A stretch of DNA of 56,580 bases from Comamonadaceae bacterium (GCA_008080595.1 VIKI01000006.1:1-56580); one strand, 5' to 3'. Shown: positions 4,611 to 54,472, counted from the first letter of the stretch. The notes: generated by a model from the sequence alone, not told the origin. A program made the numbers and translations.

Positions 4611-7600
4611 ATGCGCCTGAAACATCTCACTTTTCCGCTGCTGGTATTTGCCATACCCGCCTACGCCATCCCCTCCCCTGACCTGGTCATCAACGCCTTT
4701 GCGTCAGCAGCGCAGATTGTGGGTTTGCTGGCGGCCATGTCAGGTGCCGCACTGCTGCGGGTTCAGGGCGCGGGCGGGAGTGCTCATCCACGCACGGGCC
4801 GCTGGCTATTCGGCTTCGGCGTGGTGGCCGTGCTGGCGCTTCTGGTCAACGTGTGGCAGTACGCCAGCCATGTCAGTGCCGACAGTCGGCGGCTGGAGAC
4901 CAACCTGTGGCGCAAACCCTCCGATTGGGATCGCACCTTTGCCGCGCCCATGATCACCAGCACCGAGCTCGCCGCCCGCATGGCGAACTCAAAAGCCATG
5001 CACCTGATCGACGTGCGTGAGCCCGAAGAATTTGAAGTCACGCATCTGCCCGGGGCCATCAACCTGCGCTATGCCGACCTGCTGCTGGGCCTGCGCCAGC
5101 CCCCGGCTGACGGCCTGCCGGTGGTGTTCGTCTGCGATTCAGGCAAACGCAGCGGCGAGGTGTGCGAACAACGCAAGCACCAGGGCCTGCCCTGCCAGGT
5201 GCTGGAGGGCGGCTACCCGAAATGGGCACGCGAGGAACGCCCTCTTTCCACACCAGCCTACGGCTGGCGTGCCCGTTTCACCCCCTTGCCACGCTACGCA
5301 CGTGACACCATCTACCTGGACACCCCCGAGGTCAGCGATCTGGTGCAGCAGGACGCGGCCCGCTTCCTTGACGTGCGCAGCCCGGACGAATTTGCACGCG
5401 GCCATTTGCCCGATGCGCTCAACCTGCCAATGCGCGGCATGGCCTCACAGGCACTGGCCGACGCACTGGCGCAACTGCCACGGCAGCCCTTTGTGGCCGC
5501 CTGTTATGACAACCGCAGCTGCTTTCATGCCCGTGTGCTGGGCCTGAAGCTGACCCGTTTGGGGCTGGATTTCCGTGGCCGCTACACCGTGCCGCAAGAG
5601 TACCCGGTTCCTGCCCAGATCACCACACGCGGCATGTGGCCACGGGTGCAGCGTGTCACCTCCACCGCCATCGACAAAGCGGTGGAGCCACTGGCACGCG
5701 GCCTGGCCTTTGCCAGTGCCCCTCTGGGCGGACTGGTGCCCGCCATGCTGCTGCTCTTGCTTCTGACACGCCTGCCCCTGGCCCCGCTGGCGGCCAAGGC
5801 ACAGCGCGACCGCCAGGCCCTGCGCAGCATTGCCGACCAGACGGCGCAGCTGCGCGCCCACTATGCGGATGACCGCTTTCGCCTGCAACGCGCGGTACAA
5901 CAGCTGCGCCGCCAGCAGGGACTCACCCCTTGGCGCAACCTGGCGGTGAGTCTGTTGCAAATGGGGGTGTTTCTGGTCTGCTTTGCCGCCGTGCGCGCCG
6001 CCGCCCAGTGGAGCGACGAGTCATTCCTGTGGCTGGAACTGCTGCGCGAGCCCGACCCCAGCGGGGCGCTGGCCCTGGCGATTGGCATCACTGCCTGTGC
6101 CCTGACCTGTCGCCTGCTGGTCACCACCACCGTGCAACGGCCAACCCGCTGGGCGCTGGGTGTCCTGGCGGGCATCGCGATGTGGTGGTTGAGCCGGGAT
6201 ATGTCCGCAGCCATCAGCCTGTACCTGCTGGCCTCGATGGTGCTGCTGTGGCTGCAACAGCGCACCTGGCGTGAACGAGCCAGCTTGCTGCGCCAGTGGT
6301 GGCGCACGCAGCAACGCCCAGCGCCCACTTTGACCCCGCATGCCATCGCGCTGGAACACTGCACGCACGCCAGCGCCGTGGGCAACAAGGCCCTGCGCCA
6401 AGGGCAAATGCGCCTGGCCGGTTTGCCCGTGCCACCCGGCTGGGTCTGGCCTGCCGACAGCCGTGAACCCTGGGATGCAAGGGCTACCCTGGCAGAGCTG
6501 ACCGCGTTGGGACTTGACCGCCACGCCCGCTACGCCGTGCGCAGCTCCGGGGTGGCGGAAGACTGCGCAGCGCAGAGCTTTGCCGGTGTCTTCAGGAGTG
6601 AACTGCAGGTGGCGTGGCAGGACATTCCAGCAGCCATGCAACGGGTTCTGGCCAGTTATGGCGATGCCGGTGATCGCCATGCGCCCGGCGCGTTGGCCGG
6701 GTATGCGCCGGGCACGCCGCACAGCGGTGGTGTGATCGTGCAGGCCATGGTCAAGGCCGAGTACGCCGGAGTGCTGTTCACGCGCGACCCTGGCAATGTG
6801 GGGGCGATGCTGATCGAGTGGGTAGCAGGCTTGGGCGAAGCCCTGGCCAGCGGACGTGCCACGCCCAACGCCCTGCGCGTGGGCCGGGTGTCGGGATTGC
6901 CACTGGACAGCAACACGCCGTGCCCACTGGACATGGCCCCGCTGATTGCGCTGGCCCACCAGATTGAACGCCTGTTTGGCCGTGCGCAAGACATTGAATG
7001 GGCGTTTGCCCAAGGCAATTTCACCATTTTGCAAGCGCGGGACATCGTGGACGCGCCGCACGAGGGCGACACATCCGCAGCCCGGCACATGCTGGTGGCC
7101 CAGGAACGCACGCGCCTGCTGGACTTGCTGACACCCTGCGCCTGCAGCCCGGATGCAGCAGCGCTGGTGCAGACCGACATGACAGCCGACCTGCCCCGGC
7201 CCACACCCCTGAGCCTGTCGCTGATGCAACACCTGCGCGGCGACGGCGGCGCGACCGACCGCGCCTGTGAGCGGCTGGGCTTGAACTGGAACATCGGCCC
7301 CCACAGCACGCCAGAAATTCAAAGTGCGTTCGGCCAAACCTTTGTACTGCAGGCCCAGGCCTTGGCGCAGGGGCCGTCCATGGGCGTTTTAGCATCCTTT
7401 TATTTGTCACGCAGTGCGGATGCCGTCGAAGCGCATTTTCTGCAGGCATTTCTGCCGCACTACCTGGAGGCCATGCGCTGGCGTGAGGTCATGGATTTGC
7501 AGGCCTTGAGCGACGGCGAACTGGTCGCCACCTTGCAGTCCTGGACACGCCAATTCGTGCAGACCCACTATGTCGAAGCCGATGTCATCAACATCGCCGC

Positions 7601-8555
7601 CGAGTTCTACACCCGTGCCGCCGCCGCAGCCATGGCCCGCAAGGGGCTGGTGCCCACCCAGCTGGTGTCAATCATGGCTCAGCCAGTGGTGGCCACCACA
7701 CTGGCCACACACGGACACCGCGCCGTGCACGATTGGGAGTTGAGCGAACAGCGCTACAGCGAAGACCCAGCCGCCTTTGCCCAACATTTCGGGGCGGCCA
7801 GCACACAGCATCCAGGCAATGAAGCCACCCAGGGCCAGGAGCCCCACGCAAGGCGCAGGCTCTTGCACTCCAGCATCGAACGTGCGCAGCGCTTTGCCCG
7901 GCTCAAGGAAGAAGCCAAGCACGCCCTGCTGCGCGAGCTGGCGCAAATCCGCCGCCTGCTGCAGGTGCTGGATCAGCGGCTGGCGCTGAACGGCCTGGTC
8001 TACTACCTGACGCTGGAAGAAGTGCCCGGGTTGCTGGGACTCACAGCGCAGACCTTGCGCCAGCGTGCCCAGCTCAGGCACGCGCAGGCGCAGGTTTTTC
8101 GCGAGGTTGTCGTCGGCCCAAGCCTCTCGGTGCGTGAACTGGAAAGTCGTACCGACTGGTTCCACGCCGCCCCTGCGAGCGGGTCTGTGGTGCTTGCATC
8201 AGCTACGCTGAAAGGTCTGCGGGTGTCCGGGCACAGGGAGGTGACAGGCCGCGTGCGCGTGTTGCGCGATGCCGATGACCTGGTGCATTTGCGCCCGGGC
8301 GAGATTGCCGTGGTTAGCCTGGCCGATCCGCAGTGGCTGGGGGCTTTTGACCGCGCCAGTGGTCTGGTCTCTGAAGTAGGCGGCTGGCTCGCCCACCTGG
8401 CGATCCTGGCGCGTGAAAAAGATATGCCAGCCGTGTTTGGTGTGGCGCAGGCCATGCAGCAGTTGCAGACCGGCGACGTGGTCACGCTGGGGGTGGATGG
8501 CTGTGTGTGGGTGCTGGAACATGCGAAACCGGCATCTGCAAGCTCCACACCGTGA
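4611..8555 (+). CDS. Membrane-anchored multidomain protein: two rhodanese domains, transmembrane segments, PPDK_N-type ATP-grasp, helical middle, PEP-utilizing phospho-His domain
   Basis: Rhodanese 1 LIDVREPEEFEVTHLPGAINL...VVFVCDSGKRSGEVC; rhodanese 2 FLDVRSPDEFARGHLPDALNL...FVAACYDNRSC; hydrophobic segments around AMLLLLLLTRLPLAPLAA and ALALAIGITACALTCRL; ATP-grasp GNKALRQGQMRLAGLPVPPGWV...YAVRSSGVAEDCAAQSFAGVF...YAGVLFTRDPGN; mobile domain GRVRVLRDADDLVHLRPGEIAVV...SEVGGWLAHLAILAREKDMPAVFG. Confidence 0.88.
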   Translation: MRLKHLTFPLLVFAIPAYAIPSPDLVINAFASAAQIVGLLAAMSGAALLRVQGAGGSAHPRTGRWLFGFGVVAVLALLVNVWQYASHVSADSRRLETNLWRKPSDWDRTFAAPMITSTELAARMANSKAMHLIDVREPEEFEVTHLPGAINLRYADLLLGLRQPPADGLPVVFVCDSGKRSGEVCEQRKHQGLPCQVLEGGYPKWAREERPLSTPAYGWRARFTPLPRYARDTIYLDTPEVSDLVQQDAARFLDVRSPDEFARGHLPDALNLPMRGMASQALADALAQLPRQPFVAACYDNRSCFHARVLGLKLTRLGLDFRGRYTVPQEYPVPAQITTRGMWPRVQRVTSTAIDKAVEPLARGLAFASAPLGGLVPAMLLLLLLTRLPLAPLAAKAQRDRQALRSIADQTAQLRAHYADDRFRLQRAVQQLRRQQGLTPWRNLAVSLLQMGVFLVCFAAVRAAAQWSDESFLWLELLREPDPSGALALAIGITACALTCRLLVTTTVQRPTRWALGVLAGIAMWWLSRDMSAAISLYLLASMVLLWLQQRTWRERASLLRQWWRTQQRPAPTLTPHAIALEHCTHASAVGNKALRQGQMRLAGLPVPPGWVWPADSREPWDARATLAELTALGLDRHARYAVRSSGVAEDCAAQSFAGVFRSELQVAWQDIPAAMQRVLASYGDAGDRHAPGALAGYAPGTPHSGGVIVQAMVKAEYAGVLFTRDPGNVGAMLIEWVAGLGEALASGRATPNALRVGRVSGLPLDSNTPCPLDMAPLIALAHQIERLFGRAQDIEWAFAQGNFTILQARDIVDAPHEGDTSAARHMLVAQERTRLLDLLTPCACSPDAAALVQTDMTADLPRPTPLSLSLMQHLRGDGGATDRACERLGLNWNIGPHSTPEIQSAFGQTFVLQAQALAQGPSMGVLASFYLSRSADAVEAHFLQAFLPHYLEAMRWREVMDLQALSDGELVATLQSWTRQFVQTHYVEADVINIAAEFYTRAAAAAMARKGLVPTQLVSIMAQPVVATTLATHGHRAVHDWELSEQRYSEDPAAFAQHFGAASTQHPGNEATQGQEPHARRRLLHSSIERAQRFARLKEEAKHALLRELAQIRRLLQVLDQRLALNGLVYYLTLEEVPGLLGLTAQTLRQRAQLRHAQAQVFREVVVGPSLSVRELESRTDWFHAAPASGSVVLASATLKGLRVSGHREVTGRVRVLRDADDLVHLRPGEIAVVSLADPQWLGAFDRASGLVSEVGGWLAHLAILAREKDMPAVFGVAQAMQQLQTGDVVTLGVDGCVWVLEHAKPASASSTP

Positions 8556-20635: not shown

Positions 20636-22111
20636 TTGCTGCCCATGAATCACCCTGAACTCCAGTTTGTCTGGCGTGGCGAGATCGTCTCGCTGCGCAA
20701 TGTACCACCCACCCGCACGCTGTTGCAGTTGCTGCGCGAAGACCTGAACCACAGTGCCACCAAAGAGGGCTGCAACGAGGGCGACTGCGGAGCCTGCACC
20801 GTGGTGCTGGGAGAAAACCAGGGCGGCCAGCTGCGCTACCTGGCGGTCAACAGTTGTATTCGCCTGGCGCATTCGATTCACGGCATGGCCTTGTGGACAG
20901 CGGCTGACTTGGCCGCAGCAGACCACACCCCACACCCGGTGCAACAAGCCTTGCACCAGTGCCATGCCAGCCAATGCGGTTTTTGCACACCGGGTTTTGC
21001 CATGAGCCTGTTTGGCCTGTACCAGAACCAGGTGCTGAAAGACCAGCCGGTGACCCGCAGCGTGGCGCAAGAAGCCCTGTCGGGCAACCTGTGCCGCTGC
21101 ACCGGTTACCGGCCCATTCTGGAGGCCGCCCAGCACATGCAGCACTTGCCCAAGCACTCATTGGATGAAACTGAATTGCTACAAAAATTAGAGCTTCTTG
21201 CGCAACATCCACCTGGGCTAGAGGCCAATTTTTCATATAAAAACCCCACCACACTGGAAAACTTGCTGAGCGAACGCGCCGCCCACCCACAAGCCCAGAT
21301 CGTGGCGGGTTGTACCGATGTCGGCCTGTGGGTCAACAAGTTGCACATGGACTTTGCCCAGGTACTGGATGTGACCCGTGTGGCGGAACTGCGGCACATT
21401 GAGAGCACCGCCAGCCACACCGTGATCGGCGCAGCCGTGCGCTTGACCGATGCCTTTGCCGCCCTGGAGTCCGAGCGCCCCCAGTTGCACAGCTTCTTCA
21501 GCCGCTTTGCCGGGCTGCCGGTGCGCAACTCCGGCACGCTGGGCGGCAACATTGCCAACGGCTCACCGATTGGCGACAGCATGCCGCTGCTGATTGCCCT
21601 GCGGGCCAGCGTGGTGCTGATGAGTGTGCGTGGGGCCAGAGAACTGCCGCTGGAAGACTTCTACACCGGTTACCGCAAAAACCTCTTGGCCGCCGATGAA
21701 GTGCTGGCTTTTGTGCACGTGCCGCGACCGCAGGCTGGCGAACACCTGCGGGCCTACAAAATCTCCAAGCGCCTGGAGGACGACATCTCGGCCGTCTGTC
21801 TGGTCATCAACTTGCAGATTCAGGACGGCCACATCGCTCACACCAGCATCGGCGCAGGCGGCGTGGCCGCCACCCCAGCACGCGCCCGACAAACCGAAGC
21901 CGCGTTACAAGGCCAGCTCTGGACTCATGAGACTTTCAGCCAAGCCATCCCCACCCTGCGCGGTGAATTCCAACCGATTTCCGACATGCGTGCCAGCGCC
22001 GCTTACCGCACCCAGGTGCTGGGCAACCTGCTGGAGCGCTTCTGGCAAGAGATTCAAGACCCCACAGCCGCCAGCCTGCTGAACCTGAGCCTGGAAGGAG
22101 ATGCCCCATGA
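20636..22111 (+). CDS. xdhA: Xanthine dehydrogenase small subunit (2Fe-2S/FAD)
   Basis: 491 aa; NEGDCGACTVVLGE, SQCGFCTPGFAMSL, GNLCRCTGYRPI, FAD domain VAGCTDVGLWVNK and LPVRNSGTLGGNIANGSPIGDSMP. Confidence 0.94.
   Translation: MLPMNHPELQFVWRGEIVSLRNVPPTRTLLQLLREDLNHSATKEGCNEGDCGACTVVLGENQGGQLRYLAVNSCIRLAHSIHGMALWTAADLAAADHTPHPVQQALHQCHASQCGFCTPGFAMSLFGLYQNQVLKDQPVTRSVAQEALSGNLCRCTGYRPILEAAQHMQHLPKHSLDETELLQKLELLAQHPPGLEANFSYKNPTTLENLLSERAAHPQAQIVAGCTDVGLWVNKLHMDFAQVLDVTRVAELRHIESTASHTVIGAAVRLTDAFAALESERPQLHSFFSRFAGLPVRNSGTLGGNIANGSPIGDSMPLLIALRASVVLMSVRGARELPLEDFYTGYRKNLLAADEVLAFVHVPRPQAGEHLRAYKISKRLEDDISAVCLVINLQIQDGHIAHTSIGAGGVAATPARARQTEAALQGQLWTHETFSQAIPTLRGEFQPISDMRASAAYRTQVLGNLLERFWQEIQDPTAASLLNLSLEGDAP
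21170..21241. repeat. Dispersed repeat copy inside xdhA (in frame, inter-domain linker)
   Basis: ttgctacaaaaattagagcttcttgcgcaacatccacctgggctagaggccaatttttcatataaa, encoding LLQKLELLAQHPPGLEANFSYK. Confidence 0.55.
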
Positions 22112-24319
22112 CATCCACATCAACCGCAGCGGGCCACTCCCACCCCCACGAAAGTGCCGCCGCCCAAATTGCCGGTGCAGCCCTCTACATTGACGACCTG
22201 CCCGAGGTGCGCGGCACGCTCTACGCGGCCCCGATCCTGTCGAAAGTGGCGCATGGCAAGCTGATCGGCATCGACACCCAGACCGCCCTGGCCCGGTCCG
22301 GCGTGCGTGCGGTGCTGCTGGCCGCCGACGTGCCCGGCCACAAGATGCTGGCCGCCTTTGCCGGGGACGAGCCGGTGTTTGCCATCGACACCGTGCAGTA
22401 TGTCGGCCAGGCCCTGGGCGTGGTGGTGGCGGACAGCATGGCGCAAGCGCTGCATGCCGCCCGCCATGTAGAGGCCAAGATTGAGCCACTGCCCGCCGTG
22501 CTGGACGTGCGCCAAGCCCTGGCAGCGCAGAGTTTTGTGCTGCCACCGGTAACGGTGCGCCGGGGCGATGCCGCTCAAGCCCTGGCGCGTGCACCGCACC
22601 GCTTGCAAGGCACGCTGGAGGTCGGTGGCCAGGAGCACTTTTACCTGGAAGGCCAGATCGCCTACGCCCTGCCGCAGGAGCAAAACCAGTGGCTCATCCA
22701 CAGCAGCACCCAGCACCCCGGCGAGGTGCAACACTGGGTGGCACATGCGCTGGGGCTGGACAACCATGCGGTGCGGGTCGAATGCCGCCGCATGGGTGGT
22801 GGCTTTGGCGGCAAGGAAACCCAGGCCGGGCACTTGGCGGTGTGGGCCGCCGTGGCTGCCCACAAGCTGCAGCGCCCGGTGAAACTGAGGCTGGATCGGG
22901 ACGATGACTTCATGCTGACCGGCAAGCGCCACCCGTTTTCTTACGACTACCAGGTTGGCTTTGACGACACCGGTCGGCTGTGTGGCCTGCAAGTACAGAT
23001 GCTGGCGCACTGCGGCTTCAGCGCCGACTTGTCTGGCCCGGTGGCAGACCGGGCGATTTTTCACGCCGACAACGCCTACTTTCTGCAAGATGTTGAGATC
23101 AGCTCGTACCGCTGCAAGCTCAACACCCAGAGCCACACCGCATTCCGGGGCTTTGGCGGGCCGCAGGGCATGATCGTCACCGAAGCCATTCTGGGCGACA
23201 TTGCCCGCCACCTCCAGCTCGACCCCCTGGCGGTGCGGCAACGCAACCTCTACAGCGAAGAACCAGTCGATGCCGATGCCAACCTCAAGCGCAACACCAC
23301 CCACTACGGCATGCCGGTGGAAGGCAATATTCTGGCACCATTGCTCTCAAAATTAGAGCTGTCTGCGCACTACCAACAACGGCGAGAGGCCATTTTGGCT
23401 TGGAATTCTTCAAGTAAAGTCATCCAGCGCGGCATCGCCATCACGCCGGTCAAGTTTGGCATCAGCTTCACCGCCACCCTGTTCAACCAGGCCGGTGCCC
23501 TGGTGCATGTGTACCTGGATGGCAGCATCAGCGTGAACCACGGCGGCACCGAGATGGGCCAAGGTTTACACACCAAAGTGGCGCAGATCGTGGCCGATGA
23601 ACTGGGTGTGCCGCTGCACCGGGTGCGGGCCAGCGCCAGCGACACCAGCAAAATCCCCAATGCCTCAGCCACCGCCGCCTCCGCAGGTACTGCAGTTTGC
23701 AGGCGGCCAGGTGATCACCCCCAAAGCCACGCGCAGCTTCGAGGCGGTGGTGGCGCTGGCCTATGCCAACCGCATCCAGCTCTGGAGCGACGGTTTTTAC
23801 CGCACACCCAAAATCCACTACGACAAAACCACCCTGACCGGGCGGCCGTTTTACTACTTTGCCTACAGCGCAGCCTGCACCGAGGTGGCTATCGACACCC
23901 TCACCGGTGAAAGCCGGGTACTGAAGGTGGACATCCTGCACGACGTGGGCCGCTCCATCAATCCGGCGCTGGACATCGGCCAGATCGAAGGCGGTTTTGT
24001 CCAGGGCATGGGCTGGCTCACCACCGAAGAACTGGTGTGGAATGCCCAGGGGGTACTGAGCACCCACGCCCCCAGCACCTACAAAATCCCCACCGCTGGC
24101 GATGTGCCAGAACACTTCAAAGTGGACTTGTGGCCCGAGCCGAACACCGAGGACAACGTGTTCGGCTCCAAAGCCGTCGGCGAGCCCCCCTTCATGCTGG
24201 CCATCAGCGTGTTTGAAGCGCTGCGTGACGCGGTGGCGCAGGCGCGGGGGGATGGGGCCGTGGTGCGGCTGACGGCACCGGCTACGGCGGAGAATGTGCT
24301 CAGGGCGTTGGAGGGGTGA
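22108..24319 (+). pseudogene. xdhB: Xanthine dehydrogenase large subunit, disrupted by an internal frameshifting deletion
   Basis: Frame 1 (22108 to about 23690) ends in XdhB motif ...DTSKIPNASATAASAGT then loses homology; another frame resumes QVLQFAGGQVITPKA...IQLWSDGFYRTPKIHYDKTTLTGRPFYYFAY...LHDVGRSINPALDIGQIEGGFVQGMGWLTTEEL. The expected intervening segment (DLNGKAAQ...) is absent. Confidence 0.88.
23340..23420. repeat. Dispersed-repeat-like sequence inside xdhB
   Basis: gctctcaaaattagagctgtctgcgcactaccaacaacggcgagaggccattttggctt aligns with the xdhA copy (aaaattagagct.tct.gcgca...agaggcca.tttt). Confidence 0.45.
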
Positions 24320-24627: not shown

Positions 24628-26742
24628 TCAATCCAACTCAACTTTCAACTTATCCTTGTAGACGCGCAGTCGAAGTGCAGCGCGCTCGATGAAGTGCTCG
24701 TACAGCAGCACTTCACTGTACAACTCTCCATAGACACGGTTGGTCTCATCATCGACTAGCTTGTCGCTGTGGAAATATCCCTTACCGTTGGCAAATCGTT
24801 GATACACCGGAAACATTCTGGAAGGATCCAGTTTGCAGCCAATCAAATAGCCATAAAACCTCTTAATGCGCCCTTTGGACTTTGCTGCCAAGAGACGAGC
24901 ATATTGCGCCAGATCTGGTATGTGCTCTTGAATTCCAACGTCCGGTGCCTTGAACTCGATAATTATTGCTGCTCCTTCTTTCGTGAAAATAGCAATGTCG
25001 GGTCGCTTGCTTTCGTGAGTCTTATTGTTGAATGCAAATAGCTTCTCTAAACTCTCATCGATATCAGCTTCAAATAGATTTTCCGTATCGGACCATTTAA
25101 TGGTCTTAAGGGGCTTATCAGAGGAGATGTACTGAAAATATTGGTACTCCTCATTGAGGAGCCAGATGTCGTGGTCGGTTGTCTCCGTGGAATCCTTACC
25201 CATTGGGAAGAAAATGTTGTGGATGATGCGCTCATTCTCATTCCGCTTTCCCGGCTCCTCCGCTTGACAAGTGAGTAGTCCCCCTACGGCAAGGCGCAGC
25301 ACTTCAATCATTGCACTCCGGCGGACAACCAACTGAGATAGATTGGTCATATCCATCTTTTTGATGGAGCTGGCGTATTTCCAAGAGAGCTCACCGACCT
25401 TGCGTCGGAAATCTGAGGTGCGCGGATCAAGACGAAGAAGCTCGTCCTTGATTTTAAATAGCTTAGAGGTGTCACCGACGATGTCCTCTTGCAGCTTCTT
25501 CAAAACACGGCGCGCGATGTTTTCTTCGTTGTCGCCGTAGTGGATCTTGACGCTTGTTCCCTCAATCATCTGCCGAGTTATTCCGAATCTTTGCTCGGTA
25601 GACCTTACCAAATTGTCTTTGTCAAAGTCGCTGGGCGTGATGATTTGAAAAACATAGTCCTCTAGTGAGTCGACTACGTCATCCAGCGAAAACTCCTCTA
25701 TTAAAGTTTCACTGTCGGTGCATGACGATGGAATATCGAATCCATCGCGTTGTTGGTTGACTTTTTCCTCAAGGAGTTCGCTCTCTACGAGGAGCAGTTC
25801 GAAGTTTCCAGAAGTTGCAGACTTGCGCTCATTGGCGTGGCGCAGGTAGCGCTTTATGATCGGTTGTACTACCGCCGAGTTGGCGCAGAGCGCTACCTCA
25901 TGCTGGAAGCTCGGGAACTCAACTTCCGGGAATGAGTACCGGGTCACCCTCAATTTAGGACCGATTCGAAATTCCTTCGAGTGGTTGCACGTGAGGGAAA
26001 TTTCTGCGATTTGTCCCACGGGTTTCGGTAAGTCCTTGCCCGCAATTGTTTTCTCCGCCGATTTGTCTCCATGGCTTGAAGAAACTTGAATTTTGAAGTC
26101 TCCAATCAGTTCCTTCAGGATGATGAGCCGCTGTAGGAGAGCGGTATATAGATGAGCGGCGACTGCCGGCGCAGAGAAGACCTCTGGCGTTGAACCCTGC
26201 TCTACCTTTTGTTCAGCTGTCAGCGTGCTTTGTCGGCGACCCTTTAGCGTGAAGGTGGTCTCGACTTCTTCACCATTGGCCGGGGTCACTGAGAACGAGT
26301 TTTCGGAGACCTCTCGGGACGATTCGTCGACTTGCAGCGTTCTCCTTACAGTCATATTTGATTGCTCGAAGACACTATCAATCGACAACCGATCAAAGTG
26401 GTGGAAGAACTGAATTCGGCCAGCACCTTTGCACTTGCCAATGCCTGGTATTTGCAGTTGATCTTTGTACGTTGAATCTTTGGTTACGAAGGCTTTAACT
26501 TCGTCATCCCCGAAACCAGTACCGTTGTCTGTACAGGCAATTTCGACATCGAATTGACAGCCGTACAAATCGACATTGATTACCTTTATGCCGACCTTCA
26601 CCAAGAACGGGGGGGTGTTACTGATTCTGCTCTTGCGAATTAAATAGGAGTCGATGGCATTTGAGAGCATCTCCTCGAATACGACGTATTCGCTGTGATT
26701 TATCGCCGTGTTCTTGCGGCCCCCGCGTATATCAAGCGTCAT
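24628..26742 (-). CDS. GHKL (Hsp90-like) ATPase with C-terminal PD-(D/E)XK nuclease-like domain; candidate anti-phage defence protein
   Basis: 704 aa; N-box FEEMLSNAIDSY, G1 CTDNGTGFGDDE, G2-like IPGIGKCKGAGRIQFFHHFD; C-terminal RPDIAIFTKEGAAIIIEFKAPDVG fits D-x(n)-ExK. Confidence 0.8.
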   Translation of the reverse strand: MTLDIRGGRKNTAINHSEYVVFEEMLSNAIDSYLIRKSRISNTPPFLVKVGIKVINVDLYGCQFDVEIACTDNGTGFGDDEVKAFVTKDSTYKDQLQIPGIGKCKGAGRIQFFHHFDRLSIDSVFEQSNMTVRRTLQVDESSREVSENSFSVTPANGEEVETTFTLKGRRQSTLTAEQKVEQGSTPEVFSAPAVAAHLYTALLQRLIILKELIGDFKIQVSSSHGDKSAEKTIAGKDLPKPVGQIAEISLTCNHSKEFRIGPKLRVTRYSFPEVEFPSFQHEVALCANSAVVQPIIKRYLRHANERKSATSGNFELLLVESELLEEKVNQQRDGFDIPSSCTDSETLIEEFSLDDVVDSLEDYVFQIITPSDFDKDNLVRSTEQRFGITRQMIEGTSVKIHYGDNEENIARRVLKKLQEDIVGDTSKLFKIKDELLRLDPRTSDFRRKVGELSWKYASSIKKMDMTNLSQLVVRRSAMIEVLRLAVGGLLTCQAEEPGKRNENERIIHNIFFPMGKDSTETTDHDIWLLNEEYQYFQYISSDKPLKTIKWSDTENLFEADIDESLEKLFAFNNKTHESKRPDIAIFTKEGAAIIIEFKAPDVGIQEHIPDLAQYARLLAAKSKGRIKRFYGYLIGCKLDPSRMFPVYQRFANGKGYFHSDKLVDDETNRVYGELYSEVLLYEHFIERAALRLRVYKDKLKVELD

Positions 26743-29088: not shown

Positions 29089-29190
29089 GATGCCGTGCGA
29101 TATCTCAAAATACCTTGAGCAATATCAAATTCCCCATAAAAACCCTGTGCTCAGCAAAGTCTTTTGGCACTTCTTTACCGAAAACCTTCC

Positions 29191-30616
29191 ATGACAAGCC
29201 TGCTGATCAAAAATGCCCGCTGTATCGCCACTCTGGATCATGCCAAGCCCAGTCTGGCCCACGAATGGACGGATGCGTCGATCTTGATCCGGGGCTACCG
29301 CATCGAAGCCATTGGCCCGCAGGCCGAGCTGCCGCAGTCTGCCGATGAGGTGATTGATGCCCGCGGCCACCTGGTCACACCCGGCCTGATCAACACCCAC
29401 CACCACATGTACCAGAGCCTGACCCGCGCCATTGCCGCAGTGCAAAACGCCGAGCTGTTTGGCTGGCTGCAAGGCCTCTACCCGATGTGGGCTGGTCCGG
29501 GTCAGCACCCAGGTGGCGATGGCCGAACTGCTGATGAGTGGCTGCACCACCAGCAGCGACCACCTCTACATCTACCCCAACGGTGTGCGGCTGGACGACA
29601 GCATTGAAGCCGCCCAGCAGATGGGCATGCGCTTTGTCGCCAGCCGCGGCAGCATGAGCGTGGGGCAATCCCAGGGGGGCCTGCCACCTGATCGGGTGGT
29701 TGAACAAGAAGCGGCCATTCTGAAAGACACCCAGCGCCTGATCGAAACCTGGCATTCCCACGCCCACGGGGCCATGGTGAATGTGGCGGTAGCCCCCTGC
29801 TCGCCCTTCAGCGTGAGCCGTGATCTGATGCGTGAATCGGCCGCCCTGGCCCGCAGCTATGGGGTGCGGCTACACACCCATCTGGCGGAAAACGACCACG
29901 ATCTGGCCTACTCCAGAGAAAAATTCAACTGCACCCCGGCCCAATACGCCCAAGACCTGGGCTGGCTGGGCCATGACGTGTGGCATGCCCACTGCGTCAA
30001 GCTCGACGATGAAGGCATTCGCCTGTTTGCCGCCAGCCACACCGGCGTGGCGCACTGCCCGTGCAGCAATATGCGGCTGGGCTCGGGCATTGCACCGATT
30101 CGCAAAATGCTCAACGCCGGTGTACCGGTGGGTCTGGGGGTGGACGGCAGCGCCAGCAATGATGCCGCCCACATGGTCAACGAGGCACGCCAGGCGCTGC
30201 TGCTGGCCCGCGTGGGCCGCGCCATGCAGCCGCCCGAAACCCGCCTGGAGCCCGATGGCTCACAGCGCAGCTTCTTTGGCTGCGACCTGGGCCCGGCTGA
30301 AATGACACCCCGCGATGCCCTGAGTCTGGCGACCCGGGGCGGCGCACAAGTGCTGGGGCGCTCCGACATTGGCCACCTGGCACCGGGCATGTGCGCCGAT
30401 CTGGCCCTGTTTAACCTGAACACGCTGGCTTTTGCTGGTGCTGCGGTGCATGACCCGGTGGGTGCGCTGCTGCTGTGTGCCAGCCCTCAGGCGGCTTACA
30501 CGGTGGTTCATGGCAAGGTGGTGGTGCGCCAGGGGCAACTGAGCACGGTTGACCTGGGGCCGCTGCTGGAGCGCCACAATACACTGGCCCTGCAACTGGC
30601 ACTGAAGACTTGCTGA
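29191..30616 (+). pseudogene. 8-oxoguanine/guanine deaminase (amidohydrolase) disrupted by a short frameshifting deletion
   Basis: Frame A MTSLLIKNARCIATLD...LVTPGLINTHHHMYQSLTRA...LFGWLQGLYPMWAG; frame B LVRVSTQVAMAELLMSGCTTSSDHLYIYPNG...HTHLAENDHDLAYS...VGLGVDGSASND. Confidence 0.88.
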
Positions 30617-47576: not shown

Positions 47577-47965
47577 TGGTGGAGCTGGGGGGATTTGAAC
47601 CCCCGTCCGCAAACCTTCTTCGAACAGTTCTACATGTGTAGCCATCTGATTTGGATCTCGCTTTTCACATCGCGCAGTGGCACGCTATGCAAATCGCCAG
47701 CAACCTATTTTCTCAGGCCGCCCTAAGTTACCCAAGGCGACCCCAGCCGAATGATATTACCCCACAGCCTGGACAGCCCAACCTTGCGATTTGACTACCC
47801 TTGCCCAGCCGATCGGCTGACTGTTGTGAGGCTCACGTGCGATTAAGCAGCGAGTGCGAAACGTTCGTCGTTTGCAGTTAGTTTTTTTGAATCTGTTTTA
47901 CGAGCGCATTCAGCTCGACATGCCCTGCTGCGCGTCCGAATCCACGTCGAAACCAGTGCAGCCCC
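47577..47965 (-). ncRNA. ssrA: Transfer-messenger RNA, tag peptide ANDERFALAA
   Basis: Minus strand begins GGGGCTGCACTGGTTTCGACGTGG, contains GCAAACGACGAACGTTTCGCACTCGCTGCTTAA (tag at 47843-47875) and ends GGACGGGGGTTCAAATCCCCCCAGCTCCACCA. Confidence 0.97.
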
Positions 47966-51875: not shown

Positions 51876-54472
51876 TTTCGCTTCCACCCAGGCTTGCACG
51901 CTGGCCAAGGCTTGCGCCAGTTGTGCGGGCTCGGTGCCACCGGCCATGGCCATGTCGGGCTTGCCGCCGCCTTTGCCACCGACCTGGGCCGCAACAAAGT
52001 TGACCAGTTCACCGGCTTTGACCTTGCCGGTGGTGTCGGGGGTCACACCCACAGCGATTTGCACCTTGGCCCCATCGACCACGCCGAGCACGATGACGGC
52101 GGTTTTCAGCTTGTCCTTGAGCTTGTCCATGGTGTCGCGCAGGGTCTTCACATCGGCCCCCTCCAGGCGGGCCACCAGCAGCTTCACCCCTTTGAGGTCT
52201 TGCGCCTGTGTCACCAGCTCATCACCCTGGGCAGAGGCCAGCTTGCCTTTGAGTGCGGCCACTTCTTTTTCCAGGGTTTTGACGTGATCCAGCACCGTCA
52301 CCAGGCGGTCATTGACCTCGACCACCGGGGTTTTCAGCAGGTGGGCGGCATTACCCATGCTGTCTTCCAGATGCTGCAGGTAATGCAAGGCGTTTTCGCC
52401 ACACCACTCTCGGCCACCACCTTGAACAGGCCAATGTCGCCGGTACGTGCCACATGGGTGCCGCCGCACAGTTCGCGGCTTTCGCCAATGTCGAGCACCC
52501 GCACCGTCTCGCCATATTTTTCGCCAAACAGCATCATCGCGCCAGTTTTCTGGGCCGACTCGATATCCATCACCCGCGCCTGGGTGGCGGCGTTGCTCAG
52601 AATCTCGGCATTCACGCGGGCTTCAATCTCGCGGATCTCCGCATCGGTCACCGGCGCATTGTGGGCAAAGTCAAAACGGGTGCGATCCGGGTTGACCAGG
52701 CTGCCTTTTTGCTGCACGTGGCCGCCCAGCACTTCACGCAGGGCTTTGTGCATCAAGTGCGTGACCGAGTGGTTACGTTGGGTGGCGGCACGGGCGCTGG
52801 AGTTCACATGCGCCGTGACACCGTCACCCACTTTGAGTTCACCGGTTTTGAGCGTGCCGTGGTGGCCAAACACATCGGCCTTGATTTTTTGTGTGTCCGC
52901 CACCTCAAACAAAGCGTGGTCGCAGAACACCGCGCCCGAATCACCCACTTGACCACCGCTTTCACCATAAAACGGTGTGGAGGCCAGCACCAACACCCCA
53001 TTTTGACCCTCTTTTAGGCTTGTAACGCTTGCACCATCAGCGTAAATAGCTATTATTTCTGTAGTGGCTGTCAAGTGCTCGTAGCCCACAAATTCATTGC
53101 CTGCGCCGGAGTAGTCCAGCGCCTTGTCCATCTTGAACTTGCCAGCGGCACGGCCCTGGGCTTTTTGGTGCGCCATGGCGGCATCAAAACCGGCGGAATC
53201 CACTGTCAAACCACGCTCACGGCACACGTCAGCCGACAAGTCCAGAGGGAAGCCAAAGGTGTCGTGTAACTTGAAGGCCACGTCACCCGGAAGCACCTTC
53301 ACCTCGCCAGCCAAGGCCTCATCCAGAATCTGCATGCCCACTTCCAGCGTCTCATAAAAACGCTCTTCTTCCAACCGCAACACCTCCATGATGCGCTGTG
53401 CCTGCTCGGCCAGATGCGGGTAGGCTGCGCCCATCTGGGCCACCAGATCGGGCACCAGTTTGTGGAAAAACGGGGTTTTCTGGCCTAGTTTGTAGCCATG
53501 GCGGATGGCGCGGCGGATGATGCGGCGCTGCACATAACCACGGCCTTCGTTGCTCGGCGGCACGCCGTCCGCCACCAAAAACGCAGTGGCGCGGATGTGG
53601 TCGGCAATCACCTTGAGCGACGGGTTGGTCAGGTCGGTGATGTGGGTTTCACGCGCGGCGGCTTTGATCAGCGCGTCAAACAGGTCGATCTCGTAATTGC
53701 TGTGCACGTGTTGCAGGATGGCGGCCAGGCGCTCCAGGCCCATACCGGTGTCCACGCAGGGTGCGGGCAGCGGGGTCACCGCTCCGGTTTCGTCCATGTT
53801 GAATTGCATGAACACGTTGTTCCAAATTTCGATGAAGCGGTCGCCGTCTTCTTCCGGGCTGCCGGGTGGGCCGCCGGGGATGTGGTCGCCATGGTCATAA
53901 AAGATTTCAGAGCAAGGGCCGCAGGGGCCGGTGTCGGCCATCATCCAGAAGTTGTCGCTCTTGTAGCGGCCGCCCTTGTTGTCGCCGATGCGGATCACAC
54001 GCTCGGGGGGCAGGCCAATTTCTTGGGTCCAGATGTCATAGGCTTCGTCGTCTTCTTCATAAACGGTGGCCAGCAGGCGCTCTTTGGGCAGCTTGTAGAC
54101 CTCGGTCAGCAGTTCCCAGGCCCATTTGAGCGACTCGCGCTTGAAATAGTCGCCAAAACTCCAGTTGCCCAGCATCTCGAAGAAGGTGTGATGGCGTGCG
54201 GTGTAGCCGACGTTTTCCAGGTCATTGTGTTTGCCACCGGCACGCAAGCAGGCTTGCACGGACGCGGCACGCACATAGGAGCGCTTATCCGTCCCCAGGA
54301 ACACGTCCTTGAACTGCACCATGCCGGAGTTGGTGAACATCAGCGTCGGGTCATTGCCCGGCACCAAGGGGCTGGAGGCCACCACGGTGTGGCCTTTGGA
54401 GGCAAAAAAGTCGAGAAATGATTTGCGAATGTCGGCAACACTGATGGTGCTGGGGTTGGCGGACTGGGTCAT
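51870..54472 (-). pseudogene. alaS: Alanyl-tRNA synthetase, apparently disrupted by a short frameshifting deletion (possible sequence error)
   Basis: Frame A 52334-54472 [60 protein letters not shown]...[24 protein letters not shown]; frame [25 protein letters not shown]...[30 protein letters not shown]. Confidence 0.9.
53011..53066. repeat. Dispersed repeat copy inside alaS (in frame)
   Basis: cttttaggcttgtaacgcttgcaccatcagcgtaaatagctattatttctgtagtgg, encoding [18 protein letters not shown]. Confidence 0.5.

Follow-up and report, generated by a model that had tools for sequence, protein, structure and literature searches.

Rifampin phosphotransferases (RPH; for example, RPH-Lm, 5hv1 and 5fbs) and the small-molecule dikinases RedH/PigC and HpeI share the order of an ATP-grasp domain, a helical acceptor domain and a swivel domain with a catalytic His; RPH relatives are small-molecule dikinases, and the roles of K22, R117, R666-E667-K670 and His825 of RPH have been described (PMC4844700). 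Membrane-anchored or tandem rhodaneses are represented by YgaP and others (5hbo, 1yt8), and YidC/Oxa1/Alb3 insertases by a fold of five transmembrane (TM) helices with a cytoplasmic hairpin, in which R366 and Y517 are groove residues of Escherichia coli YidC (PMC8920935). In the AioXSR/ArrX three-component sensors and the ThsS and TtrS kinases, a PhnD-fold periplasmic binding protein or domain is combined with a histidine kinase: AioX and ArrX feed kinases, AioX orthologues being treated as the sole signalling members of their family (PMC5908839), and tetrathionate and thiosulfate are sensed by PhnD-like domains of TtrS and ThsS (PMC5408782). Here, we analyzed a 56,580-nucleotide DNA stretch from a Comamonadaceae bacterium (GCA_008080595.1, VIKI01000006.1:1-56580; this whole stretch is called the window below), in which a gene at 4611-8555 (+) encodes a fusion of two rhodanese domains, a YidC/Oxa1-fold domain and an RPH-like dikinase. 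Its architecture and predicted topology strongly support an inner-membrane enzyme spanning the envelope, and most of its relatives are encoded in a cassette together with a binding protein and a membrane signal transducer.

The gene is, as the initial annotation had stated, one open reading frame (ORF) of 1314 amino acids; it has an ATG start and no internal stop, and many stops are found on the opposite strand. Pfam recognized two Rhodanese stretches (E 7e-25), 60KD_IMP (YidC/Oxa1; residues 378-551, E 4.5e-16), PPDK_N (E 4.8e-26) and PEP-utilizers (E 1.3e-15), and the catalytic-site strings CDSGKRS (Cys175), CYDNRSC (Cys298) and GGWLAHLAILARE (His1262) are present, which bears out the earlier description of two rhodanese domains with loop Cys and of a PPDK_N and a His domain with intact His. 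The further TM segments described at that time also exist, but their identity as a YidC/Oxa1-fold domain had been missed. Many phosphoenolpyruvate (PEP)-synthase, RPH and prodigiosin-ligase models of NCBIfam matched the protein, all far under their own cut-offs; thus, no curated NCBIfam family covers the fusion. The annotated start is plausible because the Rhodoferax relatives share the signal-peptide-like start and its AxA end followed by a conserved IPSP; in our protein this segment (residues 1-19, ending in AIPAYA before IPSP) lies at 4611-4667 (+), and A17, A19, I20, P21, S22 and P23 are invariant among homologues.

Rhodanese domain 1 (residues 118-207, 4962-5231 (+)) carries the loop CDSGKRS with Cys175 at 5133-5135, and domain 2 (residues ~238-330, 5322-5600 (+)) an atypical loop, CYDNRSC, with Cys298 at 5502-5504 as well as Cys304; the likeness of the two domains is still detectable at the DNA level. 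Residue conservation was scored over 78 homologues (fewer where stated), in which Cys175 was kept in 77 and Cys298 in all. A model of residues 1-575 matched the single rhodanese 3gk5 with a TM-score of 0.87. Both domains can therefore be assigned to the rhodaneses by predicted fold and loop Cys, and sulfurtransferase activity is predicted for them. Rhodanese loops of the sulfurtransferase type have six residues, whereas those of the Cdc25/arsenate-reductase type have seven; the latter reading was dropped, as the active-site loops fall one residue short of it. Domain 1 shares the rhodanese fold and the CxxGxRS/T-type loop with YgaP and similar proteins, but the fusion differs from these in that both domains are predicted to be periplasmic, the second loop is CYDxRSC and other catalytic modules are attached.

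The membrane domain (residues 378-551, 5742-6263 (+)) scored 64.7 bits against a 60KD_IMP cut-off of 35. The model of residues 1-575, built on a 46-sequence alignment, had a pLDDT of 85.6 and a pTM of 0.60, so that the placement of domains relative to each other is unreliable, and it matched Bacillus halodurans YidC (3wo6) with a TM-score of 0.75 (on target). Groove residues R366 and Y517 of E. coli YidC align with Arg387 (5769-5771) and Tyr538, each found in 78/78 homologues. By profile and modelled fold, the central TM block thus belongs to the YidC/Oxa1 superfamily, with the five-TM fold, the cytoplasmic hairpin and the invariant Arg and Tyr; an insertase activity is hypothetical. In contrast with known insertases, the fusion has two rhodaneses at the position of the P1 domain and a 755-residue dikinase in place of the C-terminal tail, and a normal YidC of 586 residues is encoded elsewhere in the same genome.

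The dikinase part comprises an ATP-grasp domain (PPDK_N, residues ~589-814, 6375-7052 (+); K593, R644, E796, Q808, R810), a helical acceptor domain homologous to the RIF-binding domain of RPH (residues ~825-1190, 7083-8180 (+)) with the motif K1099-E-E-A-K-H1104 at 7905-7922 (+), and a phospho-His swivel domain (residues ~1200-1302, 8208-8516 (+)) with the catalytic His1262 at 8394-8396. The model of residues 560-1314 (pLDDT 87.2, pTM 0.87) found RPH-Lm 5hv1 as its top structure match (E 7e-27), with a low whole-chain TM-score of 0.45, as would be expected if the swivel domain were oriented otherwise in the model. Alignment with RPH-Lm paired K22 with K593, R117 with R644, T136 with S663, E297 with E796 and H825 with H1262. 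K593 is invariant among homologues, R644, E650, D651, E796, Q808 and R810 occur in 78/78, and His1262 in 72/72. Thus, the loss of catalytic residues in most homologues, which the initial annotation had named as speaking against its proposal, was not seen. The absence of a C-terminal TIM barrel as in PEP synthase could also be confirmed, the His domain ending 12 residues before the stop codon, and the RPH-like order of ATP-grasp, helical and His domains held as well. The ATP-side residues, the catalytic His and the acceptor-site Glu and Lys are shared with RPH-Lm, RedH/PigC and HpeI. However, R666-E667-K670 of RPH aligns with K1099-E1100-K1103, so that R-E-x-x-K is here K-E-x-x-K (74/74 homologues), and the acceptor domain is shorter and diverged; RPH is also soluble and stands alone, whereas the dikinase of the fusion is membrane-bound, following periplasmic rhodaneses and a YidC core in the chain. 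The C-terminal module is hence predicted to work like a dikinase and is not classified as RPH proper. The His domain is related to Enzyme I of the phosphotransferase system (PTS). A dikinase-only relative (G318, L029 1219-3855 (-)), whose gene directly overlaps a histidine kinase gene, has lost the K, the E-D, the acceptor Lys and the catalytic His, in contrast with the conserved fusions, and may be a pseudoenzyme that perhaps retains only a regulatory role. In another locus (L093 4499-8518), the fusion is naturally split between the YidC and dikinase parts into two adjacent ORFs.

Topology was derived from hydropathy and loop charges over the 78 homologues by the positive-inside rule. After the signal-peptide-like segment, the N-terminal part has two more TM helices (residues ~23-52 and ~60-86, 4677-4868 (+)), supported by hydropathy, charge and model helices; the K/R-rich loop between them is placed in the cytoplasm. 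Net charges were +4.9 for loop 48-66, +5.2 for the hairpin 394-446, +1.7 for 503-511 and +3.6 for the tail 549-580, all predicted inside; outside loops ranged from -2 to 0 (-2.0 for loop 465-486), and the rhodanese region had -5.6. Because this distribution obeys the positive-inside rule, it strongly supports periplasmic rhodaneses and a cytoplasmic dikinase, on opposite sides of the membrane, and the rhodanese pair would therefore sit where YidC has its periplasmic P1 domain. In rhodanese 1, Cys185 and Cys195 occur together in 71/78 homologues and are jointly missing from 4/78, as would be expected of a periplasmic disulfide. The physical fusion of persulfide and dikinase chemistry pointed out by the initial annotation stands as a single ORF, but a direct chemical link is weakened by the predicted placement on opposite sides.

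A search of the genome_contigs collection (84,980 species) confirmed 143 relatives, 80 of which were retained; they occur in Gamma-, Alpha- and Deltaproteobacteria, Nitrospirota and Planctomycetota. In addition, 81 plasmid records matched with at least 80% coverage, the best from roseobacters. Rhodanese and 60KD_IMP were found in 46/46 relatives and PPDK_N and PEP-utilizers in 45/45, in an essentially invariant four-domain order; extra domains were a C-terminal PilZ in 5/45 fusions and a GAF in 1/45. The nearest relatives are two Rhodoferax metagenome-assembled genomes (80% and 70% over the N-terminal half), and the window's protein groups with Rhodoferax and Parachitinimonas (support 1.0), beside Planctomycetota. 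A gene common to the genus or family was rejected: full-length copies were absent from 60 relatives, and no match at E 1e-40 was found among 400 genomes of the family. This pattern suggests patchy inheritance by horizontal movement. The database label is only 'PEP/pyruvate-binding domain-containing protein', and no report of the architecture was found in a search confined to open-access papers, which took in neither subscription journals nor the InterPro architecture lists or AlphaFold DB; together with the absence of a curated NCBIfam equivalog, this agrees with the earlier view that the architecture is unusual, and the family is apparently widespread and undescribed. One record titled Nocardioides marinus (L080) has a roseobacter-like copy and neighbourhood and is probably mislabelled or contaminated.

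Partner genes within 3.5 kb were counted in the 51 loci that had 3 kb or more of sequence to either side of the fusion gene; 474 kb of flanking DNA lying farther out in these loci served as background. ORF clustering singled out a PhnD-family binding protein and a hybrid histidine kinase as the two partners that recur. Of the 51 loci, 41 encode a binding protein of the PtxB/AioX-like or PstS-like type, against none in the background; the PstS-like type replaces the other in Hyphomicrobiales, and histidine kinase density was 1.21 per 10 kb near the gene versus 0.36 in the background. The order binding protein, kinase, fusion was seen in gammaproteobacteria, Planctomycetota and one deltaproteobacterium, whereas the arrangement is divergent in roseobacters; thus, the linkage has outlasted rearrangement. 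The transducer may be a hybrid kinase, a HAMP kinase, a HAMP methyl-accepting chemotaxis protein (MCP; L053) or a GGDEF-EAL protein (L038, L068, L088, L111). Compared with AioXSR/ArrX and ThsS/TtrS, the kinases here are hybrid types, the transducer may also be an MCP or GGDEF-EAL protein, and a fusion enzyme is the constant third partner. On roseobacter plasmids (L031-L035), the cassette adjoins a zinc uptake cluster (znuABC and a Zur-like repressor).

Since transducer outputs are exchanged while the binding protein and the fusion stay, these two would form the input side of signalling, and in the wider family the fusion is likely the enzyme that stays constant in a signalling cassette with a binding protein. 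The best explanation of the whole, to which we give a probability of roughly 40%, is that binding protein and fusion are the input side of a transmembrane signalling module in which the state of the rhodaneses controls the dikinase. The chain would run from a signal peptide and two TM helices through periplasmic tandem rhodaneses and a five-TM YidC/Oxa1 core to a cytoplasmic RPH-type dikinase. The binding protein would capture a small oxyanion of tetrahedral shape, possibly thiosulfate, and its sulfane sulfur would be bound or stripped by the rhodanese cysteines; their state would be relayed via the YidC-like core to the dikinase, which would phosphorylate His1262 from ATP, giving AMP and Pi, and pass the phosphate to a putative acceptor. 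More broadly, the protein may be an enzyme that senses or takes up an oxyanion or a sulfane-sulfur signal across the membrane, with ligand, acceptor and direction of flow all conjectural. A still more tentative formulation is a trans-envelope signalling or uptake device whose YidC core couples periplasmic persulfide chemistry to a phospho-His dikinase, served by an oxyanion-binding protein and interchangeable outputs (histidine kinase, chemoreceptor or c-di-GMP enzyme).

Several observations weigh against the signalling reading. SoxB, the sole genomic test of a sulfur link, was negative: it occurs in 23/50 carrier genomes (two counted twice) and 135/340 genomes of the class, with no enrichment, and was rejected as support for a thiosulfate role. 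The sulfur-responsive function proposed by the initial annotation may still apply, with SoxB co-occurrence at background level. Neither a binding protein nor a transducer lies near the gene in the window, the Rhodoferax relatives or Parachitinimonas, and the window's genome has no binding-protein orthologue, the best match (62 bits) belonging to an apparently ordinary phosphonate ATP-binding cassette (ABC) transporter operon. The functional reading is therefore taken from relatives with 30-40% identity and might not hold unchanged for this protein; because partner genes are absent nearby, the protein of this betaproteobacterial branch would act alone or with unlinked partners. In addition, most partner-bearing loci, which are not fully independent of each other, come from marine Alpha- and Gammaproteobacteria, and GGDEF-EAL density near the gene equals the background overall, so that this partner type rests on few loci. 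The same anatomy would also fit inside-out signalling, transport or insertion.

An unlikely, but the most credible, rival is uptake by group translocation, in which a small oxyanion or sulfur compound delivered by the binding protein is processed by the rhodaneses, the hydrophilic YidC-type groove passes this cargo or a carrier peptide and the dikinase phosphorylates it on arrival in a PTS-like manner, the neighbouring kinase being merely a regulator. PhnD/PtxB/PstS-type proteins are mostly transport components, yet no cognate ABC permease appeared as a cross-phylum partner in the ORF clustering; the invariant groove Arg and Tyr and the kinship of the His domain with Enzyme I would also fit. 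On the other hand, the recurrent partners are transducers, and we know of no YidC-family protein that transports small molecules. The strong YidC homology, the retained R366 and Y517 equivalents and the separate normal YidC, which leaves the fusion copy free to specialise, would suit a specialised insertase whose substrate for insertion or assembly is the neighbouring sensor or some other membrane protein, under thiol and phosphorylation control by the rhodaneses and dikinase; we consider this improbable, as it explains neither why both rhodanese cysteines and all dikinase residues are so strictly conserved nor why the type of partner varies.

The ligand could instead be a metalloid or phosphorus oxyanion (arsenite, arsenate, phosphite or selenium oxyanions) rather than thiosulfate, since the nearest solved relatives of the binding protein are PtxB (phosphite) and ArrX and AioX (arsenic), and NCBIfam found a weak likeness to a putative selenate binding protein. 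However, the clusters contain no recurring arsenic or phosphite genes, and the six-residue, sulfurtransferase-like rhodanese loops (CxxGxRS in domain 1) do not favor it, making this reading about as doubtful as a specialised insertase, or marginally less so. An antibiotic-inactivating or small-molecule kinase bound to the membrane by happenstance would agree with RPH-Lm as best structural match and with its small-molecule dikinase relatives; it is very unlikely in view of the Lys replacing R666, the weak full-length likeness (132 bits against a cut-off of 999 for the NCBIfam rifamycin model), the unexplained periplasmic rhodaneses and sensor partners and the lack of a PADLOC match. Apparent frameshifts in neighbouring genes could raise suspicion of an assembly artefact or a recent accidental fusion, but the same four-part order in dozens of independent loci, assemblies and complete plasmids refutes it.

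In the window, the fusion gene has umuDC upstream and, on the opposite strand downstream, a gene for a DUF155 protein. A defence role for the fusion was rejected after PADLOC gave no match, and a phage origin because only partial matches were found, none covering 80%. At 24628-26742 (-), in a stretch of lower GC content (0.50-0.52 versus about 0.59), a 704-residue protein, apparently an ATPase of the GHKL type whose C terminus resembles a nuclease (weak HSDR_N_2 match, no PADLOC match), is possibly a defence or mobile-element gene. An apparent xanthine dehydrogenase large subunit (22108-24319), a guanine-deaminase-like hydrolase (29164-30616) and an alanyl-tRNA synthetase (52334-54472) appear to be broken by frameshifts, probably due to assembly or read errors. 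A transfer-messenger RNA gene with the tag ANDERFALAA is found at 47577-47965 (-).

Thus, four catalytic or membrane modules of unrelated families have been kept in fixed order, with nearly all tested active-site residues intact, across several phyla. The fusion would put the YidC fold to a rare use beyond simple insertion and would tie periplasmic sulfur or oxyanion chemistry to cytoplasmic phosphotransfer; plasmid copies in cultivable Phaeobacter and Leisingera make its function directly testable.

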